Part shown: piece after piece, positions 12,505-26,006 of the stretch
Position numbering within the stretch: the first letter of the stretch is position 1
Layout: every line of letters begins with the position of its first letter
Notes under the pieces: model-generated
The model's database searches: none
Told to the model about the DNA's origin: nothing
Seen by the model: only the letters and a program-made list of their open reading frames with translations
Translations under genes and position numbers: made by a program
Source: a virus
IMG/VR virus record: IMGVR_UViG_3300024328_000050
Span: 1 to 26,006 of that record
Length of the DNA stretch: 26,006 bases
Direction: 5' to 3' (one strand)

Positions 12505-13341
12505 ATGGATTTAAATGCACTAAAGCAGAAATTGGATACCCTCCAATCCAAACCACAGGGTGGTCAAAAGACCGATTACACAACAATTTTTTGGAGACCT
12601 ACAGTAGGTAAACAACAAATTAGAATCGTACCATCAGCGTATGATGCTTCTAACCCATTTACTGAGTTGAAGTTTTATTATGGTATTACTAATAAAGTAA
12701 TGATTTCACCTCTTAATTTTGGAGAAAAAGACCCAATTGCTCTATTCGCTGGAAAACTACGTGAAGGTGAGTATAATAAAGAAAACTATGTACTTGCTAA
12801 AAAACTAGATGCTAAAAACCGTATTTTTGTTCCTGTAGTAGTACGTGGAGAAGAAGATAAAGGTACTAGACTATGGCAATTTGGTAAACAAGTATATGAA
12901 GAATTATTAGCACTTGCTGTTGATGATGAAATTGGAGATTACACTGATATTGTAAATGGTAGAGACCTTACAGTTGAAACAGTAGGACCAGAATCAACTG
13001 GTACTCCTTATAATAAATCATCAGTACGTGTTCGTTTAAAAACATCACCACTTAGTGAGGATGCTAGTTTGGTAGAAAAATGGACAAATGAGCAACCAAA
13101 CCCAAAAGAAGGTTTATTTAAACGTTTTAGTTTTGATGAGATGAAATCAGCATTAGAAAAATGGTTATCACCAGAAGAAGATTCTGAGGAAATTGTTGCA
13201 ACACCTGTTGTATCAACTCCAAAACCTCCTTCAAATTTTAGTTTAGATACTAATCAGGCTAAACAAAGTAAGGTAGACAAATTTGATTCATTGTTTGATG
13301 ATTCAAATAGTGGTAATAAAGTTGATGATCTACCTTTCTAA
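12505..13341 (+). CDS. 32: Single-stranded DNA-binding protein, gp32-like
   Basis: 278 residues laid out like T4 gp32 (301 residues): a short basic N-terminal segment (LNALKQKLDTLQSK), a core starting TTIFWRPTVGKQQIRIVP, and an acidic, flexible C-terminus (about 220-278) ending DDSNSGNKVDDLPF, the type of tail that binds replication partners. It coats ssDNA in replication and recombination and helps load UvsX and helicase. The protein has no cysteine at all, so the zinc site of T4 gp32 is missing. uvsX starts 2 nt after its stop. It is probably made in large amounts from the promoter at 12433; the repeated GTTACAT in its leader could serve autogenous control, as known for T4 gene 32. Confidence 0.8.
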   Translation: MDLNALKQKLDTLQSKPQGGQKTDYTTIFWRPTVGKQQIRIVPSAYDASNPFTELKFYYGITNKVMISPLNFGEKDPIALFAGKLREGEYNKENYVLAKKLDAKNRIFVPVVVRGEEDKGTRLWQFGKQVYEELLALAVDDEIGDYTDIVNGRDLTVETVGPESTGTPYNKSSVRVRLKTSPLSEDASLVEKWTNEQPNPKEGLFKRFSFDEMKSALEKWLSPEEDSEEIVATPVVSTPKPPSNFSLDTNQAKQSKVDKFDSLFDDSNSGNKVDDLPF

Positions 13342-15467: not shown

Positions 15468-15515
15468 AAAGGTTATAAAGATTGACACTTTCTACGACAA
15501 ATACCATACCTATTA

Positions 15516-15530
15516 ATATGTATAATAAAA
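15516..15530 (+). promoter_or_regulatory. Late-type motif before first GIY-YIG gene
   Basis: ATATGTATAATAAAA, one mismatch from the 15-mer and identical to the copy before the second GIY-YIG gene (24783). It ends 8 nt before ATG 15539, inside the replication block. Confidence 0.5.
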
Positions 15531-15538
15531 TATTAGAT

Positions 15539-16096
15539 ATGGTTAGTGTATATATTTTAACTGAAGGTGATGTTCCTTTTTATGTGGGAAAAACAAAAAA
15601 TATTCAACGTAGATTTTCTGAGCATAAAAGAACTTATGGCCAATATATAAAAATTAAAGAAATAGATAGAGTTGAAGATAACAATTGGGTATTTTGGGAG
15701 AGATTTTACGTTCAAAAATATAAAAAACTAGGATATTCTTTAAAGAATAAAAACAAGGGTGGGGGTGGTCCTTCATTTTATAATAAAGAAACTAGACTTA
15801 AAATGAGCATAGGAAGAAAAAATAAAGGTATGGGTAAAAATCCAAAAATTAGTGCTGCTAAAAAAGGTGTATCTCGTAATATTACTTGGGGGGATAAAAT
15901 TAGTGAGGCAAAAACTGGTTCCCCTAAAAAGGGAAAATCAATACTCCAAATTGATCCTATTACTAATAAAATAGTAAATACCTTCTCCTCTATAACAGAA
16001 GCTAGAAAAACTTTAGGTAACAATGGAATTCCAAATGCTTTAAAAGGAATATCAAAAACCTCTGGGGGATATATTTGGAAATACAAAGAAGATTAG
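15539..16096 (+). CDS. GIY-YIG homing endonuclease with NUMOD-type DNA-binding repeats
   Basis: The frame is open from 15482 (TTG), but ATG 15539 is chosen: it sits 8 nt after the late-type motif and directly before the fold, giving 185 residues. The nuclease domain shows VYIL (residues 4-7, where G of GIY is V), YVG (15-17), the RRFSEH helix (24-29) and an acidic helix WERFYVQKY with the expected catalytic Glu. Basic modules follow (NUMOD3-like TRLKMSIGRKNKG and ISEAKTGSPKKG) and a C-terminal NUMOD1-like helix-turn-helix ending GGYIWKYK. It makes site-specific DNA cuts that spread its own gene. It is freestanding between rnh and the helicase gene; both neighbours look intact. The ATG 15518 is a possible alternative start but overlaps the motif. 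Confidence 0.88.
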   Translation: MVSVYILTEGDVPFYVGKTKNIQRRFSEHKRTYGQYIKIKEIDRVEDNNWVFWERFYVQKYKKLGYSLKNKNKGGGGPSFYNKETRLKMSIGRKNKGMGKNPKISAAKKGVSRNITWGDKISEAKTGSPKKGKSILQIDPITNKIVNTFSSITEARKTLGNNGIPNALKGISKTSGGYIWKYKED

Positions 16097-16105
16097 TTAT
16101 ATTAA
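16074..16105 (+). promoter_or_regulatory. Bacteroidota-type promoter before helicase
   Basis: TTTGG (16074-16078), 19 nt, TATATTAA (16098-16105); the box ends 16 nt before the helicase ATG, exactly as at the polymerase gene. Its upstream part lies inside the last codons of the GIY-YIG gene. Confidence 0.6.
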
Positions 16106-16121
16106 AATAAAAGTTATATAA

Positions 16122-17495
16122 ATGACATTAAATAGCATTCAAAATTACGGGCATAAATTCCAAATACAGGTCTTATCATCCTTATTAACTCATAAAGAGT
16201 TTTTAGTTAACATCCATGATATTATTTCAGATGAATATTTTGAAAATCCTGCTATTAAGTGGTCTATAAAAGAAGTGCTTAAATATTTTGATAAATATCA
16301 TACAGTTCCTTCATTAGATATTCTAAAAGTTGAATTACAAAAAGTAGATAATGAAGTGTTACAAATATCTATTAAAGAGCAATTAAAACAAGCATTTGTT
16401 ACTTCTGATGATGATTTAGAATATGTACAAGAAGAATTTACAAACTTCTGTAAGAACCAACAATTAAAGAAAGCACTAATGTCATCTGTAGATTTATTAA
16501 AAGCAGGTGATTTTGATGGTATTCGTTTTATTGTAGATAATGCTTTAAAAGCAGGACAAGATAAAAACATAGGACATGAGTATGTTAAGGATATTGAATC
16601 TAGATATAGAGAAAATTCCAGAGAAACAATCCCAACTCCTTGGCCGCGTATTAATGATTTATTACAAGGTGGACTTGGAAATGGAGATTTTGGTTTAATT
16701 TTTGGTAATCCTGGAGGTGGTAAATCTTGGTCATTAGTTGCTTTAGGAGGACATGCTGTAAGATTAGGATATAATGTTTTACACTATACTCTAGAATTAG
16801 GGGAAGATTATGTTGGAAAGAGATATGACGCTTTTTTCACTAAAATCCCAGTTAATAAAGTAGATTCACATAGAGAAACTATTGAAGAAATCATACCTCA
16901 GCTACCAGGAAAGTTAATAATTAAAGAATACCCAACAGGAAAGGCAACAATCTCAACTATTGAATCACACATTGCGAAAGCAACAAGTATGGGATCTAAA
17001 CCAGATTTAGTAATTATTGATTATGTAGATCTTCTTTCATCAAGAAAGAAAAACAGAGAGCGTAAGGACGAAATTGATGATATTTATACAAGCACTAAGG
17101 GATTAGCTAGACAATTAGATATTCCAATTTGGTCAGTTTCTCAAGTAAATCGTGCAGGAGCAAATGACAATGTCATTCAGGGGGATAAAGCAGCAGGATC
17201 GTATGATAAAATTATGATAACTGATTTTTGCATGTCTCTTTCACGTAAAAAAGAAGATAAAGTTAATAATACAGGTAGATTCCATTTAATGAAAAATCGA
17301 TATGGGATGGATGGGCTTACCTTTGGTATTGAAGCAGATACTTCTACTGGACATTTTACAGTTAAAGATGAATATTTTGAAGGTGAAGAATCTGAATCAT
17401 TAGCTCCAACAACTCGTTCTAATAAATTTGATACTGATGTAGATAATTTTGATAAACAATTATTACGAAAGAAATTTTTTGAATTAAATCCTTAA
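16122..17495 (+). CDS. 41: Replicative DNA helicase, DnaB/gp41-like
   Basis: 457 residues, close to T4 gp41 (475). An N-terminal helical domain (1-150) is followed by a linker and the RecA-type ATPase: Walker A GNPGGGKS at 195-202, LHYTLELGEDYVGKRYDA (H1a region, near 222-240), Walker B LVIIDYVDLL with D300, then WSVSQVNRAG with the sensor Gln, and an arginine-rich end FHLMKNRYGMDG. It unwinds DNA at the fork as a ring on the lagging strand. The C-terminal tail (about 420-457) is acidic then basic. No separate primase is seen in this window. A promoter in the end of the GIY-YIG gene probably drives it. Confidence 0.92.
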   Translation: MTLNSIQNYGHKFQIQVLSSLLTHKEFLVNIHDIISDEYFENPAIKWSIKEVLKYFDKYHTVPSLDILKVELQKVDNEVLQISIKEQLKQAFVTSDDDLEYVQEEFTNFCKNQQLKKALMSSVDLLKAGDFDGIRFIVDNALKAGQDKNIGHEYVKDIESRYRENSRETIPTPWPRINDLLQGGLGNGDFGLIFGNPGGGKSWSLVALGGHAVRLGYNVLHYTLELGEDYVGKRYDAFFTKIPVNKVDSHRETIEEIIPQLPGKLIIKEYPTGKATISTIESHIAKATSMGSKPDLVIIDYVDLLSSRKKNRERKDEIDDIYTSTKGLARQLDIPIWSVSQVNRAGANDNVIQGDKAAGSYDKIMITDFCMSLSRKKEDKVNNTGRFHLMKNRYGMDGLTFGIEADTSTGHFTVKDEYFEGEESESLAPTTRSNKFDTDVDNFDKQLLRKKFFELNP

Positions 17496-17524
17496 ATTAA
17501 TAAAAATAAATAAATAAATAAAAA

Positions 17525-18511
17525 ATGGCAAAAACTTCATTACTACAAGAAAGAATAGTATACAAACCCTTTGAATACCAAACAGCATCTGACTATTGGT
17601 TAAAACAACAACAAGCACACTGGTTACATACAGAAGTCCCCATGATGTCTGATGTTAATGATTGGAAACAAAACCTATCAGAAACAGAAAAGAATATTAT
17701 TGGAACTATATTAAAAGGATTTGCTCAAACTGAAACTGTAGTAAATGATTACTGGTCAACTTTAGTTACTAAATGGTTTAGAAAACCAGAAGTAATTAAA
17801 ATGGCGGTTACTTTTGGAGCATTTGAAACAATACATGCTGAAGCTTATTCTTTATTAAATGAAGAATTAGGTTTAGATGATTTTAGTGAATTCTTAGAAG
17901 ATGAAGCAACAATGGCTAAAATAGAAGCTTTAACCACTGTAAGAGATTCTCATGATGGTACTCCTAATTGGCATGAAAGAGCTAAATCATTAGCTGTGTT
18001 TTCTGCATTTACAGAAGGAGTAAATTTATTTTCTTCATTTGCTGTTTTACTATCATTTAAATTGAGAAATCTAATGAAGGGGGTAGGAAGTATTGTGGAA
18101 TGGAGTATTAGAGATGAGTCACTACACTCAGAAGCGGGATGCTGGTTGTTTAGGACTCTAATGCAAGAACACCCAGAATTTAACACTCCAGAATTAAGGA
18201 TAGATATTGAGAAAGCCGCAAAGTTATCTCTAAAACTTGAATTAGACTTTATTGATAAAGTATTTGAGATGGGAGATTTAGATGGGTGTTCAAAGTATGA
18301 TTTAGTATCCTTTATCAAACATCGTACCAATACTAAAATGGGTGACCTAGGATTTGAACCTATAGTAAATGGAATTGACCCAGAATCAATTCAAAGGATG
18401 AAATGGTTTGACAACCTTTCAGGTGGAAAACAACACACCGATTTCTTCAGTACAAGGGTAACTAATTATTCCAAAGGAGCCCAAAACTGGGATGCAAATG
18501 ATTTATTTTAG
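17525..18511 (+). CDS. nrdB: Ribonucleotide reductase class I small subunit
   Basis: 328 residues with the di-iron site: E70 (in place of the usual Asp of E. coli D84), E101 and H104 in FETIHAEAY, E164 in FTEGVNLF, E198 and H201 in RDESLH. The radical Tyr is Y108, four after H104, as in E. coli Y122. The protein generates the radical that NrdA uses to make dNDPs, raising dNTP supply for phage DNA. The start lies after an A-rich leader with AAATAAATAAATAAATAA, and no promoter of either class is obvious within 60 nt. It is followed by an HNH endonuclease inserted before nrdA. The order B then A is the reverse of many cellular operons. Confidence 0.96.
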   Translation: MAKTSLLQERIVYKPFEYQTASDYWLKQQQAHWLHTEVPMMSDVNDWKQNLSETEKNIIGTILKGFAQTETVVNDYWSTLVTKWFRKPEVIKMAVTFGAFETIHAEAYSLLNEELGLDDFSEFLEDEATMAKIEALTTVRDSHDGTPNWHERAKSLAVFSAFTEGVNLFSSFAVLLSFKLRNLMKGVGSIVEWSIRDESLHSEAGCWLFRTLMQEHPEFNTPELRIDIEKAAKLSLKLELDFIDKVFEMGDLDGCSKYDLVSFIKHRTNTKMGDLGFEPIVNGIDPESIQRMKWFDNLSGGKQHTDFFSTRVTNYSKGAQNWDANDLF

Positions 18512-18532
18512 TCAACTATTTGGCCCTCCATT

Positions 18533-18547
18533 ATATTTATAATAAAA
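18533..18547 (+). promoter_or_regulatory. Late-type motif before HNH endonuclease gene
   Basis: Exact ATATTTATAATAAAA, ending 8 nt before ATG 18556, between nrdB and the HNH gene. Confidence 0.58.
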
Positions 18548-18555
18548 TTATAAGT

Positions 18556-19065
18556 ATGGAGACCAAAAAATGTACTGAATGTAAAAAAATTAAAAATGTA
18601 GAAGAATTTTATTGGAGAAAAACAAGAAATAATTTTTCACCAAAATGTAAAATTTGTTGGATTGAAGATTCTAAAAAATATAATATAAAACATAAATCTG
18701 AAAGAAAAGAATATTTAAAAGAGTGGAGAAAAGATAATGATAAACTTCGTAAATATCAAAGGGAATATAAACGCAAAGCCCCATCTCAGGATAGAATTAT
18801 CTTTAATTTAAGAAACAGAGTATATAAATTAATGTTAAAAGAATTTCAATCTCAAAAAACATTAGAACTTATAGGATGTTCAAGACAGAAGTTTATGGAT
18901 CATTTACAAAACCAATTTACAGATGAAATGAATTGGGGGAATTATGGGGATTATTGGGAAGTAGATCATATATTACCCTTAAGTAAAGGAGGAACTATAC
19001 ATTGGTCTAACTCCCAACCCTTAACAGTATCAGAAAATAGAAAAAAAAGTAATAAAATAATATAA
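18556..19065 (+). CDS. HNH homing endonuclease between nrdB and nrdA
   Basis: 169 residues from ATG 18556; the frame is open from 18520, but the motif at 18533 and the zinc finger beginning at residue 6 favour this start. The N-terminus has a four-Cys zinc module (C6, C9, C31, C34). A basic helical region follows, then HNH: D137-H138 in VDHILPLSKGG, N152 in WSNSQPL and N161 in SENRKKSN. It is a site-specific nuclease of the homing type, freestanding in the nrd operon; T-even and related phages also carry mobile endonucleases around nrdA/nrdB. The stop codon abuts the nrdA ATG with no gap, so nrdA translation may be coupled to it. Both nrd genes look complete. Confidence 0.88.
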   Translation: METKKCTECKKIKNVEEFYWRKTRNNFSPKCKICWIEDSKKYNIKHKSERKEYLKEWRKDNDKLRKYQREYKRKAPSQDRIIFNLRNRVYKLMLKEFQSQKTLELIGCSRQKFMDHLQNQFTDEMNWGNYGDYWEVDHILPLSKGGTIHWSNSQPLTVSENRKKSNKII

Positions 19066-20781
19066 ATGGAAAACAACGCATTACAGGTAGATTATACAAA
19101 TTGGGAGAAAGGTAAAAACTATCCAGAGTGGATGGATGAAATTTCTTTAGCAACTATCTCTAAAGGTTATTTATTACCTGGAGAAGATGTAAAAAAAGCA
19201 TATAGAAGAGTAGCTAATTCTTCAGCTAATAGATTAAAAAAACCAGAATTAGCTAACAAATTCTTTAAAATCATGTGGAATGGTTGGTTAGGGTTAGCAT
19301 CACCTGTGTTATCAAATATGGGAACTGATCGTGGTTTACCTATTTCATGTTTTGGTGTTGATACACCTGATTCAATACGTGGAATCGGTTTAACTAACGC
19401 GGAACTAATGAAGTTAACAGCATCCGGTGGTGGTGTAGGTATTTCGTTAAATCGCATTAGAGAACGTGGAACTGAAATCTCTGGAAATGGTAAAAGTGAA
19501 GGTGTAGTACCATGGGCTAAGATATTTGATTCATCAATAATCGCAACTAACCAAGGAAATGTTAGAAGAGGAGCAGCTTCTGTTAATTTAGATATTGAAC
19601 ATGGAGATATAGATGAATTTTTACAAATTCGTAGACCTAAAGGTGATCCTAATAGACAATGTCTAAACTTACACCAATGTGTAGTTGTAGGAGATTCATT
19701 TATGAGAAAATTAGAAGCTAGAGATCCTGAATCAATGAATAGATGGGCTACAGTTTTAAAATCAAGAATGGAAACAGGTGAACCTTATATAATGTATAAG
19801 GATAATGTAAATAAAGATAATCCGATTGCTTATAGATTAAATAATTTAGAAGTATCTATGACTAATATATGTTCTGAAATTACACTATTTACAGATGAAG
19901 AACATAGTTTTATTTGTTGTTTATCATCTATGAATTTATCTAAATATGATGAGTGGAAAGATACAGATGCAGTTGAATTAGCAACTTGGTTTTTAGATGG
20001 TGTAATGCAAGAATTCATTGATAAATCTGCTGGTAAAGATTCATTACAAAGAACTTATAACCATGCTCGTAAGGGACGTGCTTTAGGTTTAGGTGTAATG
20101 GGTTGGCATTCATTTTTACAACAAAAAGGCTTACCATTTAACTCTATAGCTTCTACAGCACATACCCATAATATATTTAATGATATTAGAGGTAAAGCAG
20201 AAAAAGCATCTATGGCTTTAGCGCAGGAATATGGAGAACCTTTATGGTGTAGGGGAACAGGTATGAGAAATACTCATTTATTAGCAGTTGCCCCAACAGT
20301 ATCTAATTCAGTTATTTGTGGTGGTATTAGTGCTGGTATTGAACCTTTACCTGCTAATATTTATACTTTTAATGGTGCTAAAGGTACTTTTATTAGAAAA
20401 AATAAAGTATTACAATCTATTTTAGCTGAAAAAGGTGAAGATAAAGATAAATGGTGGGATCAAATGCTAGCCGAAGAGGGATCAGCACAAGGTTTACCTG
20501 ATAATATTTTAACCCCAGATGAAAAGGAATTATTTTTAACATTTCCTGAGATAAATCAATTAGAATTAGTTAGACAAGCAGCAATTAGACAAAGATATAT
20601 TGATCAAACACAATCATTAAATTTATCTTTTGACGTAAACGATTCCCCAAAATGGATAAATCAAGTCCATTTAGAAAGCTGGAAATTAGGAATTAAAACC
20701 TTATATTATTTAAGAACAGATTCCGTAATTAAAGGTGACTTAGGTTCAAGGATGAGTGAGTGTCTTTCTTGCGATGGATAA
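19066..20781 (+). CDS. nrdA: Ribonucleotide reductase class I large subunit
   Basis: 571 residues, against 761 for E. coli NrdA: the N-terminal ATP-cone is absent, so the usual dATP activity switch is missing, as in many phage enzymes. Catalytic residues are present: C95 in ISCFGVD, the N267-I-C269-S-E271 active-site loop, C284 in CCLSSMNL, paired Tyr in LYYLRTD for radical transfer, and a C-terminal CLSC pair for re-reduction by thioredoxin or glutaredoxin. It reduces ribonucleoside diphosphates with NrdB. The ATG directly follows the HNH stop. No thioredoxin or glutaredoxin gene is seen nearby. Confidence 0.96.
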   Translation: MENNALQVDYTNWEKGKNYPEWMDEISLATISKGYLLPGEDVKKAYRRVANSSANRLKKPELANKFFKIMWNGWLGLASPVLSNMGTDRGLPISCFGVDTPDSIRGIGLTNAELMKLTASGGGVGISLNRIRERGTEISGNGKSEGVVPWAKIFDSSIIATNQGNVRRGAASVNLDIEHGDIDEFLQIRRPKGDPNRQCLNLHQCVVVGDSFMRKLEARDPESMNRWATVLKSRMETGEPYIMYKDNVNKDNPIAYRLNNLEVSMTNICSEITLFTDEEHSFICCLSSMNLSKYDEWKDTDAVELATWFLDGVMQEFIDKSAGKDSLQRTYNHARKGRALGLGVMGWHSFLQQKGLPFNSIASTAHTHNIFNDIRGKAEKASMALAQEYGEPLWCRGTGMRNTHLLAVAPTVSNSVICGGISAGIEPLPANIYTFNGAKGTFIRKNKVLQSILAEKGEDKDKWWDQMLAEEGSAQGLPDNILTPDEKELFLTFPEINQLELVRQAAIRQRYIDQTQSLNLSFDVNDSPKWINQVHLESWKLGIKTLYYLRTDSVIKGDLGSRMSECLSCDG

Positions 20782-24234: not shown

Positions 24235-24744
24235 ATGTTTGATATACCCATGTCAAGAAAAGAAGTAGATAAGCAATTATCTCAATATCAAAAAATAAAT
24301 TACAACCAATTTAGGTGGTGGAGGAGTTATCAACCTAAAAATAAACCACTTGATAATCGAAAACCTCTCCGTGAACGCATATTGAATGGTGATTTTGATT
24401 ATTCATGTTATAGGGCACAACAATATCTTGTTGAATATCAATTAAATGATATACTAGAAGAATGTAAAACAGACTACCAAATGTATCTTGAAAAAACATC
24501 AGTCATTAGAGCACGAAGAAAACGTTTGATTGAAGATTTTGAGAAGGATGAAGCTGAAAGATTACGTTCTTTATCAGTTGAATTTACAAAATATTTTAGA
24601 TGTAATAAAGAACAGGTAGAAGAAGAAATGTTAGAATGTAGTGGCTCCCTGATAGATCTTTATTATATTATAGAAGAAAAATATAAAATAGTCCATATAC
24701 CATATCCACTGAAGCGTAGAGGACGACCTAAAAAAGTTATATAA
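24235..24744 (+). CDS. Basic protein with C-terminal AT-hook, unknown
   Basis: 169 residues, strongly charged. The first 60 residues are basic and aromatic (QFRWWRSYQPKNKPLDNRKPLRERIL), followed by a long helical K/E/R-rich middle (about 75-115) and a C-terminus with KRRGRPKK (about 160-167), which is the core RGRP of an AT-hook that binds the minor groove of A/T-rich DNA. This suggests a DNA-binding role in transcription control or host nucleoid takeover. It starts after AAATAAAGTTT. No family is recognised. Confidence 0.6.
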   Translation: MFDIPMSRKEVDKQLSQYQKINYNQFRWWRSYQPKNKPLDNRKPLRERILNGDFDYSCYRAQQYLVEYQLNDILEECKTDYQMYLEKTSVIRARRKRLIEDFEKDEAERLRSLSVEFTKYFRCNKEQVEEEMLECSGSLIDLYYIIEEKYKIVHIPYPLKRRGRPKKVI

Positions 24745-24804: not shown

Positions 24805-25395
24805 ATGCGAAGTGGAATTTATAAAATAACAAACCCCGAAGGGAAGGTTTATATTGGGAAAAGTAAAAATATTGATATTAGATGGAATAGACATTCAAAA
24901 TATAAAACTCTTCCATCTCAACCAAAATTACATGGTTCTTTTGATGAATTTGGGTTTGAAAATCATACATTTGAAATAATAGATACTAATATAGAATTAG
25001 AAGAACAATATATTCAAAAATATGATTCATATAAAAATGGATTAAATGGTAATTTTGGTGGTGGTGGGGTTATAAATCATAGTAAAAAGGCTAGGAAACT
25101 AATTAGCATAGCAGGTAAAAAAAACAAAGGTAAAAGGATGATTTCACATAGAAAAGGTAAAAAGATAAGTGAAGAACATAGATTAAATATAAGTAAAGGC
25201 AAAAAAGGAATCCCAAACCCTAAAAATGCCAAAATTGTATTACAATATGATAAAAATAATAATCTTATCGCTGAACATCCCAGCATAGAACAAGCTGCTA
25301 TTTCAGTAAATGGGAATCCTACAGCTATAAATAATGCATTAAAAAAGGGTGGAGGAGCAACATCTTCTTCATATATTTGGAAATATAAAAAATAA
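24805..25395 (+). CDS. GIY-YIG homing endonuclease with NUMOD repeats
   Basis: 196 residues. The nuclease domain shows GIY (4-6), YIG (16-18), R26 and H30 in IRWNRH, then ELEEQYIQKY with the expected catalytic Glu, and GLNGN. Basic modules follow (KGKRMISHRKGKKISEEHR with NUMOD3-like SEEHRLNISKGKKG), then a NUMOD1-like C-terminal domain (IEQAAISVNGNPTAINNALK) ending SSYIWKYKK. It is a freestanding homing endonuclease, related in layout to the copy at 15539; both share the C-terminal YIWKYK and the promoter variant, but the nuclease domains differ enough that they are not recent copies. It sits between the AT-hook gene and the TIM-barrel gene. Confidence 0.9.
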   Translation: MRSGIYKITNPEGKVYIGKSKNIDIRWNRHSKYKTLPSQPKLHGSFDEFGFENHTFEIIDTNIELEEQYIQKYDSYKNGLNGNFGGGGVINHSKKARKLISIAGKKNKGKRMISHRKGKKISEEHRLNISKGKKGIPNPKNAKIVLQYDKNNNLIAEHPSIEQAAISVNGNPTAINNALKKGGGATSSSYIWKYKK

Positions 25396-25401
25396 TAAAT
25401 T

Positions 25402-26006
25402 ATGAAAGTATCACACGAAGTACCAAGGTGTTTATTAAATATGTCAGACGCATTTAATGATTATTCATATTGCCTCCCTCATTTACTAGATATAGATGAA
25501 GAATATAAACAATATTTTTATAAGGCTAAAGATGAAGGGCGTTATATTATTATGGATAATTCACTTCATGAATTAGGAGAAGCATACAATTTTGACAGAT
25601 TAAAATATTGGGTTAACGAATTAGAACCAGAAGAATTTATGGTACCTGATGTTTGGATGGATTGTCATCAAACAGCAGCACAAGCTAAATATTGGTTACA
25701 ATTTGATTTCCCAGAAAAAACTAAAAAAATAGCAGTAATTCAAGGTAAGGATAAAAATGATGCTTATCTGTGTGCTGGTTTATTAAGAGGATTAGGTTAT
25801 GATAAATTATGCGTATCTTATGGTGCTACTTGGTATAATGATTTTTTCCCACATACTAACTCAGATATGGGAAAGGCATTAGGTAGAGTACGATTTGTAC
25901 AAGGTTTATTAAAATTAGATCACTTAAAAGATGTTAAATTTCATTTATTAGGTTGTTCAATACCACAAGAATTTGGTTGGTATGATGATGGTTTTCCATC
26001 AAGAAT
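25402..26006 (+). CDS. TIM-barrel protein resembling tRNA-guanine transglycosylase/DpdA (3' end outside window)
   Basis: 201 codons are open to the window edge. ATG 25402 is 6 nt after the GIY-YIG stop. Features are IIMDNSLHELGEAYNFDRL (about 50-68), FMVPDVWMD (about 80-88), AVIQGKD (about 112-118), a GYDKLCVSYGATWY strand-loop, and FHLLGCSIPQEF (about 183-194). This alternation of MDN, PDV, QGK, and HLLG strand ends resembles the (beta/alpha)8 fold of TGT enzymes and phage DpdA proteins, which put 7-deazaguanine bases into tRNA or phage DNA. The C-terminal zinc site, if any, is beyond the edge. No queC/D/E or folE-like gene is visible in this window. Moderate confidence in the fold, low in the substrate. 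Confidence 0.48.
   Translation, partial: MKVSHEVPRCLLNMSDAFNDYSYCLPHLLDIDEEYKQYFYKAKDEGRYIIMDNSLHELGEAYNFDRLKYWVNELEPEEFMVPDVWMDCHQTAAQAKYWLQFDFPEKTKKIAVIQGKDKNDAYLCAGLLRGLGYDKLCVSYGATWYNDFFPHTNSDMGKALGRVRFVQGLLKLDHLKDVKFHLLGCSIPQEFGWYDDGFPSR

Follow-up and report, generated by a model that had tools for sequence, protein, structure and literature searches.

A compact DpdA-like gene at the end of an uncultured phage contig and the 7-deazaguanine genes of its relatives

A gene cut off by the end of an uncultured virus contig raises the question of whether its product exchanges bases in DNA, in tRNA or in neither. The window, that is the whole stretch of DNA analysed here, is the entire record IMGVR_UViG_3300024328_000050 (26,006 bases, with no sequence beyond). 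From its letters alone, the last open reading frame had been suggested to resemble, by the motifs MDNS, VPDV, VIQGK and HLLG, the transglycosylases that insert 7-deazaguanine. We consider it highly probable that this gene encodes a compact DpdA putting a self-made preQ0-type base into phage DNA against restriction. The DpdA reading is directly supported by homology, fold, motif conservation and the gene neighbourhood of relatives; we infer catalysis, DNA as the substrate, the identity of the base, the degree of replacement and protection. Such a 7-deazaguanine swap in DNA is a known strategy, most likely met here in a new phage group, and the gene is an ordinary, well-founded addition to the phage DpdA family.

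The cut-off gene and its phage

The reading frame is present on the + strand at 25402-26004, with an ATG start, 201 codons and no stop before the contig end, and all four motifs were located in it. Full-length relatives mostly count about 260-270 aa, and some 66 C-terminal residues are absent from the window protein; since the record stops at 26,006, the gene cannot be extended inside the window. The features of the locus are as follows.

24235..24744, + strand: protein of 169 aa with no assigned function, its cluster found in 72/83 compared loci, just 5' of dpdA
24805..25395, + strand: free-standing GIY-YIG/NUMOD1 homing endonuclease, an insertion that separates dpdA from the conserved 169-aa gene
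25402..26004, + strand: dpdA-like gene, N-terminal 201 codons (ORF, homology, predicted fold of a relative)
25552..25563, + strand: MDNS motif, residues 51-54 (sequence, alignment of relatives)
25642..25653, + strand: VPDV motif, residues 81-84 (sequence, alignment of relatives)
25735..25749, + strand: VIQGK motif, residues 112-116 (matched by hhalign to IIQG of E. coli TGT)
25942..25953, + strand: HLLG motif, residues 181-184 (paired with YLMGVG in the E. coli TGT)

The window phage is myovirus-like, and its genes include those for a baseplate hub protein, a UvsX-like recombinase, an exonuclease, a DnaB helicase and both ribonucleotide reductase subunits. Flavobacterium phage immuto_2-6A has a recombinase 62% identical to that of the window, and the one other phage match was to a Bacillus phage (27% identity), so that a Bacteroidota host is likely; the clade probably consists of uncultured flavobacterial phages. 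The longest blastn matches between the window and its relatives (76-90% nucleotide identity) cover the helicase gene, nrdA and nrdB as well as genes closer to dpdA. An Rfam scan of the window gave no matches, and no tRNA genes were found in it. Besides the endonuclease gene next to dpdA, two further homing-type endonuclease genes were seen, one GIY-YIG between the exonuclease and the helicase (15482-16096) and one HNH between nrdB and nrdA (18520-19065), all three being free-standing. In one relative (L010), the counterpart of the 169-aa gene directly adjoins dpdA.

Motifs, homologues and fold

Motifs were counted with regular expressions over 160 IMG/VR relatives, comprising a close set (best 80 of 88, 73-90% identity to the window fragment) and a distant set from a profile A1 scan (best 80 of 575, 31-42% identity). 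DNS[ILV] occurs in 159 of the 160, PD[AV] after V or I in 155, V[VI]QG in 148 and HLLG in 158, so the four window motifs are not due to chance. DTSNP, of the motif IDTSNP, is carried by 155; three of the five misses are truncated by contig ends and two (L132, L135) are without the pattern. Asp52 (MDNS) likely corresponds to TGT's first catalytic Asp, which we take to be Asp102 in Z. mobilis, and Asp83 (VPDV) is likely the base-binding Asp. The nucleophile is presumed to be the Asp of IDTSNP in relatives, with codons past the window's contig end. Of the two catalytic-type Asp residues, the DNS one is thus in the window and the IDTSNP one is seen in relatives only; we infer their equivalence to those of TGT. 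Variants of the gene were seen as well. A 327-aa frame in L022 (6919-7902) carries a duplicate of its HLLGC...IESIDTSNP block at the C-terminus, and in L053, L054 and L055 a 359-aa frame reads through into about 90 additional C-terminal residues which, by eye, resemble the small ORF after the L010 dpdA.

A tblastn search of 50,697 phage records with the window fragment matched 26 records. Campylobacter phages account for 14 of them and Flavobacterium phages for 4, all at 36-37% identity over 97-98%; the other 8 are weak matches (Chryseobacterium, Aeromonas, Bacillus and Weizmannia phages). The nearest annotated homologue is the 'DNA guanine transglycosylase' (DpdA, YP_010114477.1) of immuto_2-6A, at 36% identity with 98% of the fragment covered (E 7e-33). 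CP220 and kin match at E about 1e-28, and the CP220 protein, gp056, retains every motif; it is annotated as hypothetical, unlike the immuto DpdA, and homology and structure now tie this unannotated gene to DpdA. The expectation that a version from Bacteroidota phages would enlarge the known set holds in weaker form, deposited Flavobacterium and Cellulophaga phages already carrying relatives.

A DpdA profile (A3) matched immuto, CP220, phiST and phi13:1, and MaInes weakly (E 1e-5). In the phiST and MaInes proteins, DN, PD or LD, QG and terminal D-T/S motifs are legible by eye. The DpdA of phage 9g and the DpdA2 of Vibrio phage nt-1 belong to the same fold family as the window gene; unlike the window group, the 9g and nt-1 genomes gave no match to profile A3 at E 1, and none was obtained in Dp-1 or HVTV-1. 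On sequence grounds, the window gene is grouped with CP220, immuto and phiST, apart from DpdA1 and DpdA2, in a subfamily whose name we take to be DpdA3. According to Cui et al. 2023, DpdA3 reportedly leads to complete guanine replacement and covers Campylobacter and Bacteroidota phages; the term was not found among the open-literature matches listed.

With the window fragment as query, neither Pfam nor NCBIfam nor the PDB sequences yielded a family, and PF01702 (tRNA-guanine transglycosylase) gave no match. That Pfam miss is uninformative, because PF01702 likewise fails to match any of 12 phages searched, 9g and nt-1 with their published DpdA among them. The profile search proposed by the sequence-only reading thus came back without a Pfam or NCBIfam family, and it was tblastn that led to DpdA. 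The fragment matches phrog_19058, whose function is unassigned (E 5.7e-32). Profile alignment by hhalign gives, taken alone, a weak link to E. coli TGT (probability 9.5%, E 0.0034), and profile A1 against PDB sequences reached DpdA 7ui4 only at E 0.77, with a PadR protein and two designed barrels ranked above it.

The window protein itself being cut, a full-length relative (L002, 90% identical to the window fragment) was modelled with AlphaFold2 from an alignment with 41 other proteins, the window fragment included. The model (pLDDT 94.1, pTM 0.90) has eight strands. All 50 entries listed by VIA-align were TGT, ArcTGT or DpdA (Z 16.2-16.7), among them Z. mobilis TGT with preQ0 (Z 16.7, 233 aligned, rmsd 3.4) and the DpdA crystal structure 7ui4 (Z 16.5, 232 aligned, rmsd 3.4). 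The top Foldseek matches were 6ygl TGT (9.7e-6) and 7ui4 (1.8e-5). A viral structure library gave a match to the phiST protein M4SLA5 (TM 0.84, 20% identity) and, ranked lower, to nt-1 R9TGF0 and to queuine transferases from Mycobacterium and archaeal viruses. The likeness to TGT and DpdA first seen in the letters was thus recovered in the relative's model, which supports placing the window gene product in the TGT/DpdA superfamily, with a TGT-type barrel.

Pathway genes, predicted base and substrate

Homologues of immuto genes were searched for in close relatives (best 80 of 88) within flanks of at most 10 kb, with a partial QueC query. The preQ0 pathway genes, which had been proposed as a check, were found right after dpdA in these relatives: QueC in 63 of the 80, QueD in 54, QueE in 51 and FolE in 43, with a phosphoribosyltransferase in 42, a PRA-PH-type hydrolase in 41, and QueF and formyltransferase in none. 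Restricted to the 55 of these loci in which 3 kb or more follow dpdA, the tally is QueC 54, QueD 51, QueE 49, FolE 43, phosphoribosyltransferase 42, hydrolase 41, QueF 0 and formyltransferase 0. The window gave no preQ0 pathway gene match and ends at dpdA, just short of where relatives carry these genes. The usual order in relatives is dpdA, small ORFs, queC, a thioredoxin-like gene, queD, queE, folE, the phosphoribosyltransferase, the hydrolase and a split family B DNA polymerase. In the L010 set, QueC, QueD, QueE and FolE score under the curated NCBIfam cut-offs; QueC, PTPS, radical SAM and GTP cyclohydrolase score over those of Pfam. In L053-L055, QueD, QueE and FolE were not found within 10 kb of dpdA, and the L055 record has FolE elsewhere, beyond 10 kb.

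Other genes of this region were seen in L010. The thioredoxin-like gene (12937-13185) is immediately 5' of queD in the clade, and immuto has a thioredoxin-domain gene too; the PRA-PH-type pyrophosphohydrolase gene (15948-16490) is near that of the phosphoribosyltransferase, and immuto also has it. The family B DNA polymerase is present as two ORFs (16517-18298 and 18953-19888) with small ORFs between, and the split polymerase clusters occur in 38 and 32 loci.

In whole records of the clade (20, picked mostly for length), QueC was found in 20/20, FolE in 17/20, the phosphoribosyltransferase in 18/20, and QueF and formyltransferase in 0/20. An importer, also suggested earlier, did not turn up: the YhhQ type (PF02592) is in 0 of the 20 clade records and 0 of 22 records overall. 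The QueC frames, of 264-297 aa, would leave no space for a fused amidotransferase. Given the lack of QueF and formyltransferase in the 20 records and of room for an amidotransferase in QueC, preQ0 is predicted from sequence as the inserted base; preQ1 could be supplied via a host QueF. Immuto resembles the clade in having folE, queD, queE and a phosphoribosyltransferase near dpdA, and differs in carrying QueF and formyltransferase there as well.

In the proposed mechanism, DpdA would act after replication, cleaving guanines from phage DNA at their glycosidic bond via a covalent Asp intermediate, and a 7-deazaguanine base would be put in at the emptied positions. The phage would make this base itself from GTP by FolE, QueD, QueE and QueC, whose genes would be placed just past the contig end, as in close relatives. 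The inserted preQ0 might occupy most or all guanine positions, and the outcome would be resistance to host restriction enzymes. Precedents come from other phages. For 9g and nt-1, passages of PMC6884629 place the preQ0 pathway in the same genomes as DpdA. For CP220 and CPt10, passages of PMC8306585 give 100% replacement of dG by dADG, a product different from the preQ0 predicted for the window clade; complete guanine replacement in the window phage would be an extrapolation by analogy. In the passages of PMC6884629 that concern Campylobacter phages, no DpdA is recognised and a dGTP route is discussed. The homology found here would supply those phages with a transglycosylase. Cui et al. 2023 are said to have likewise assigned them one, DpdA3. 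The uncultured, probably flavobacterial and myovirus-like group of the window would thereby be placed among phages rebuilding their DNA with 7-deazaguanine, and modified DNA is to be reckoned with when such phages are sequenced or restriction-tested.

Other roles for the protein were weighed. A tRNA-guanine transglycosylase, raising queuosine-type modification of host or phage tRNA, would share the fold and motif order, and the top Z values are indeed those of tRNA enzymes, with DpdA tied within 1 Z unit. However, these enzymes are longer (375 aa for E. coli TGT against about 265 here) and carry CxCxxC, part of the structural zinc site of TGT, which the regular expression found in 0 of the 160 relatives (best 80 of 88 and best 80 of 575). 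The CP220 homologue, moreover, sits in a phage with fully substituted DNA according to passages of PMC8306585. DNA would thus be favoured over tRNA as the substrate, and we regard a tRNA enzyme as improbable. No better chance is given to a route in which modified dGTP is made first and incorporated by the DNA polymerase, the phosphoribosyltransferase making the nucleotide from 7-deazaguanine and the TGT-like protein having another job. Such a route was previously proposed for Campylobacter phages, as passages of PMC6884629 relate, and would fit both the Gpt-like phosphoribosyltransferase adjoining FolE in relatives and the ribonucleotide reductase encoded in the window; yet it would leave a TGT-like gene retained with two catalytic-type Asp motifs and no evident role. 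A TGT fold is by itself no guide to the substrate, and Cap10 of type IV CBASS (PMC11996544) is a case with a protein target. A target of this kind is very improbable here, as no CBASS genes are among the annotated window ORFs or the annotated downstream clusters (a subset of ORFs), the full preQ0 set lies near replication genes in relatives, and homologues occur in phages with modified DNA (passages of PMC8306585). A different TIM-barrel family, an outcome that the sequence-only reading had named as a refutation, has next to no chance: oxaloacetate decarboxylase and further barrels appear in Foldseek from E 4.6e-4, but TGT and DpdA come first there and in VIA-align, where about 232 of 267 residues align at Z 16-17.

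A phosphoribosyltransferase beside folE

The gene adjoining folE in relatives encodes a compact guanine/xanthine-type phosphoribosyltransferase. By sequence, the solved structures nearest to it are 1vdm and the Gpt enzymes of Sulfolobus; by fold, they are 1vdm (Z 15.0), HGXPRT (14.7) and E. coli XGPRT (14.4), compared through a moderate model of pLDDT 82.4 (the other four models reached 55-59). Between two strands, the enzymes of the window clade and immuto are about 30 residues shorter than those of phiST, MaInes and BUCT-ZZ01, a stretch in which the flexible catalytic loop is presumably located.

Among the 50,697 phage records, only 34 match the phosphoribosyltransferase at E 1e-3 (Campylobacter 15, Cellulophaga 5, Flavobacterium 4, Stenotrophomonas 3, Brevundimonas 2, Pseudomonas 2, fecal 2, Synechococcus 1). 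A second query matched 22 records, two small Escherichia and Salmonella records being new to the list. A near full-length dpdA match was obtained in 18 records, and 16 of these appear on the 34-record list; the remaining two both represent a single segment of phage IBB_35, and the list includes the records of its other segments. None of the 8 weak tblastn records is listed. A phosphoribosyltransferase profile (A4) matched 8/8 phages chosen for the enzyme or dpdA and 0/4 of nt-1, 9g, Dp-1 and HVTV-1, with QueD in 11 of these 12. Profile A4 was built partly from four of the phages tested, and only the four misses and the following test are informative. Eighteen longer dpdA records of the distant set (best 80 of 575) were picked by length, the phosphoribosyltransferase not being considered: 14 match it, 10 with E <1e-15 and 4 between 1e-7 and 1.2e-5, and 4 do not. 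It lies at most 2.2 kb from dpdA in 11 of the 18, at 8.4 kb in one and at 28-30 kb in two.

Its position varies: it adjoins folE in MaInes and stands between queE and queD in BUCT-ZZ01. In Stenotrophomonas phage ply2008005c, profile A4 and tblastn place the domain at the N-terminus of the FolE protein, in what appears to be a fusion, although PF00156 did not reach E 0.01 there. As profile A3 finds no match in the Stenotrophomonas and Synechococcus lineages that have the phosphoribosyltransferase, its partner may be the pathway rather than the window-type DpdA.

We tentatively suggest, giving it somewhat less than an even chance, a closed base-exchange cycle in guanine-replacing phages. A DpdA3-type enzyme would eject one guanine at each exchange, the phage phosphoribosyltransferase would return it to GMP, and GMP would be converted to GTP, the FolE substrate, the ejected guanine thus feeding synthesis of the replacing base. 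The idea is prompted by the repeated occurrence of the enzyme alongside dpdA and by its apparent fusion to FolE. Counting against it are the roughly 30 residues missing between two strands in the window-clade and immuto enzymes, the moderate model, the 4 of 18 dpdA records with no match, the three in which the gene is 8.4 kb or 28-30 kb distant, and the failure of PF00156 to reach E 0.01 in the Stenotrophomonas protein. The phosphoribosyltransferase could equally act on the 7-deazaguanine base instead of guanine. In the open literature, we found no paper joining xanthine-guanine phosphoribosyltransferase, queuosine and phage, the passages found on phosphoribosyltransferases concerning other ones; we do not claim the link as unpublished. 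If true, it would be a simple answer to the fate of guanine in a whole-genome exchange. A Gpt-like phosphoribosyltransferase was also seen to accompany 7-deazaguanine genes across phage lineages (L166, L167, L168, L169 and CP220).
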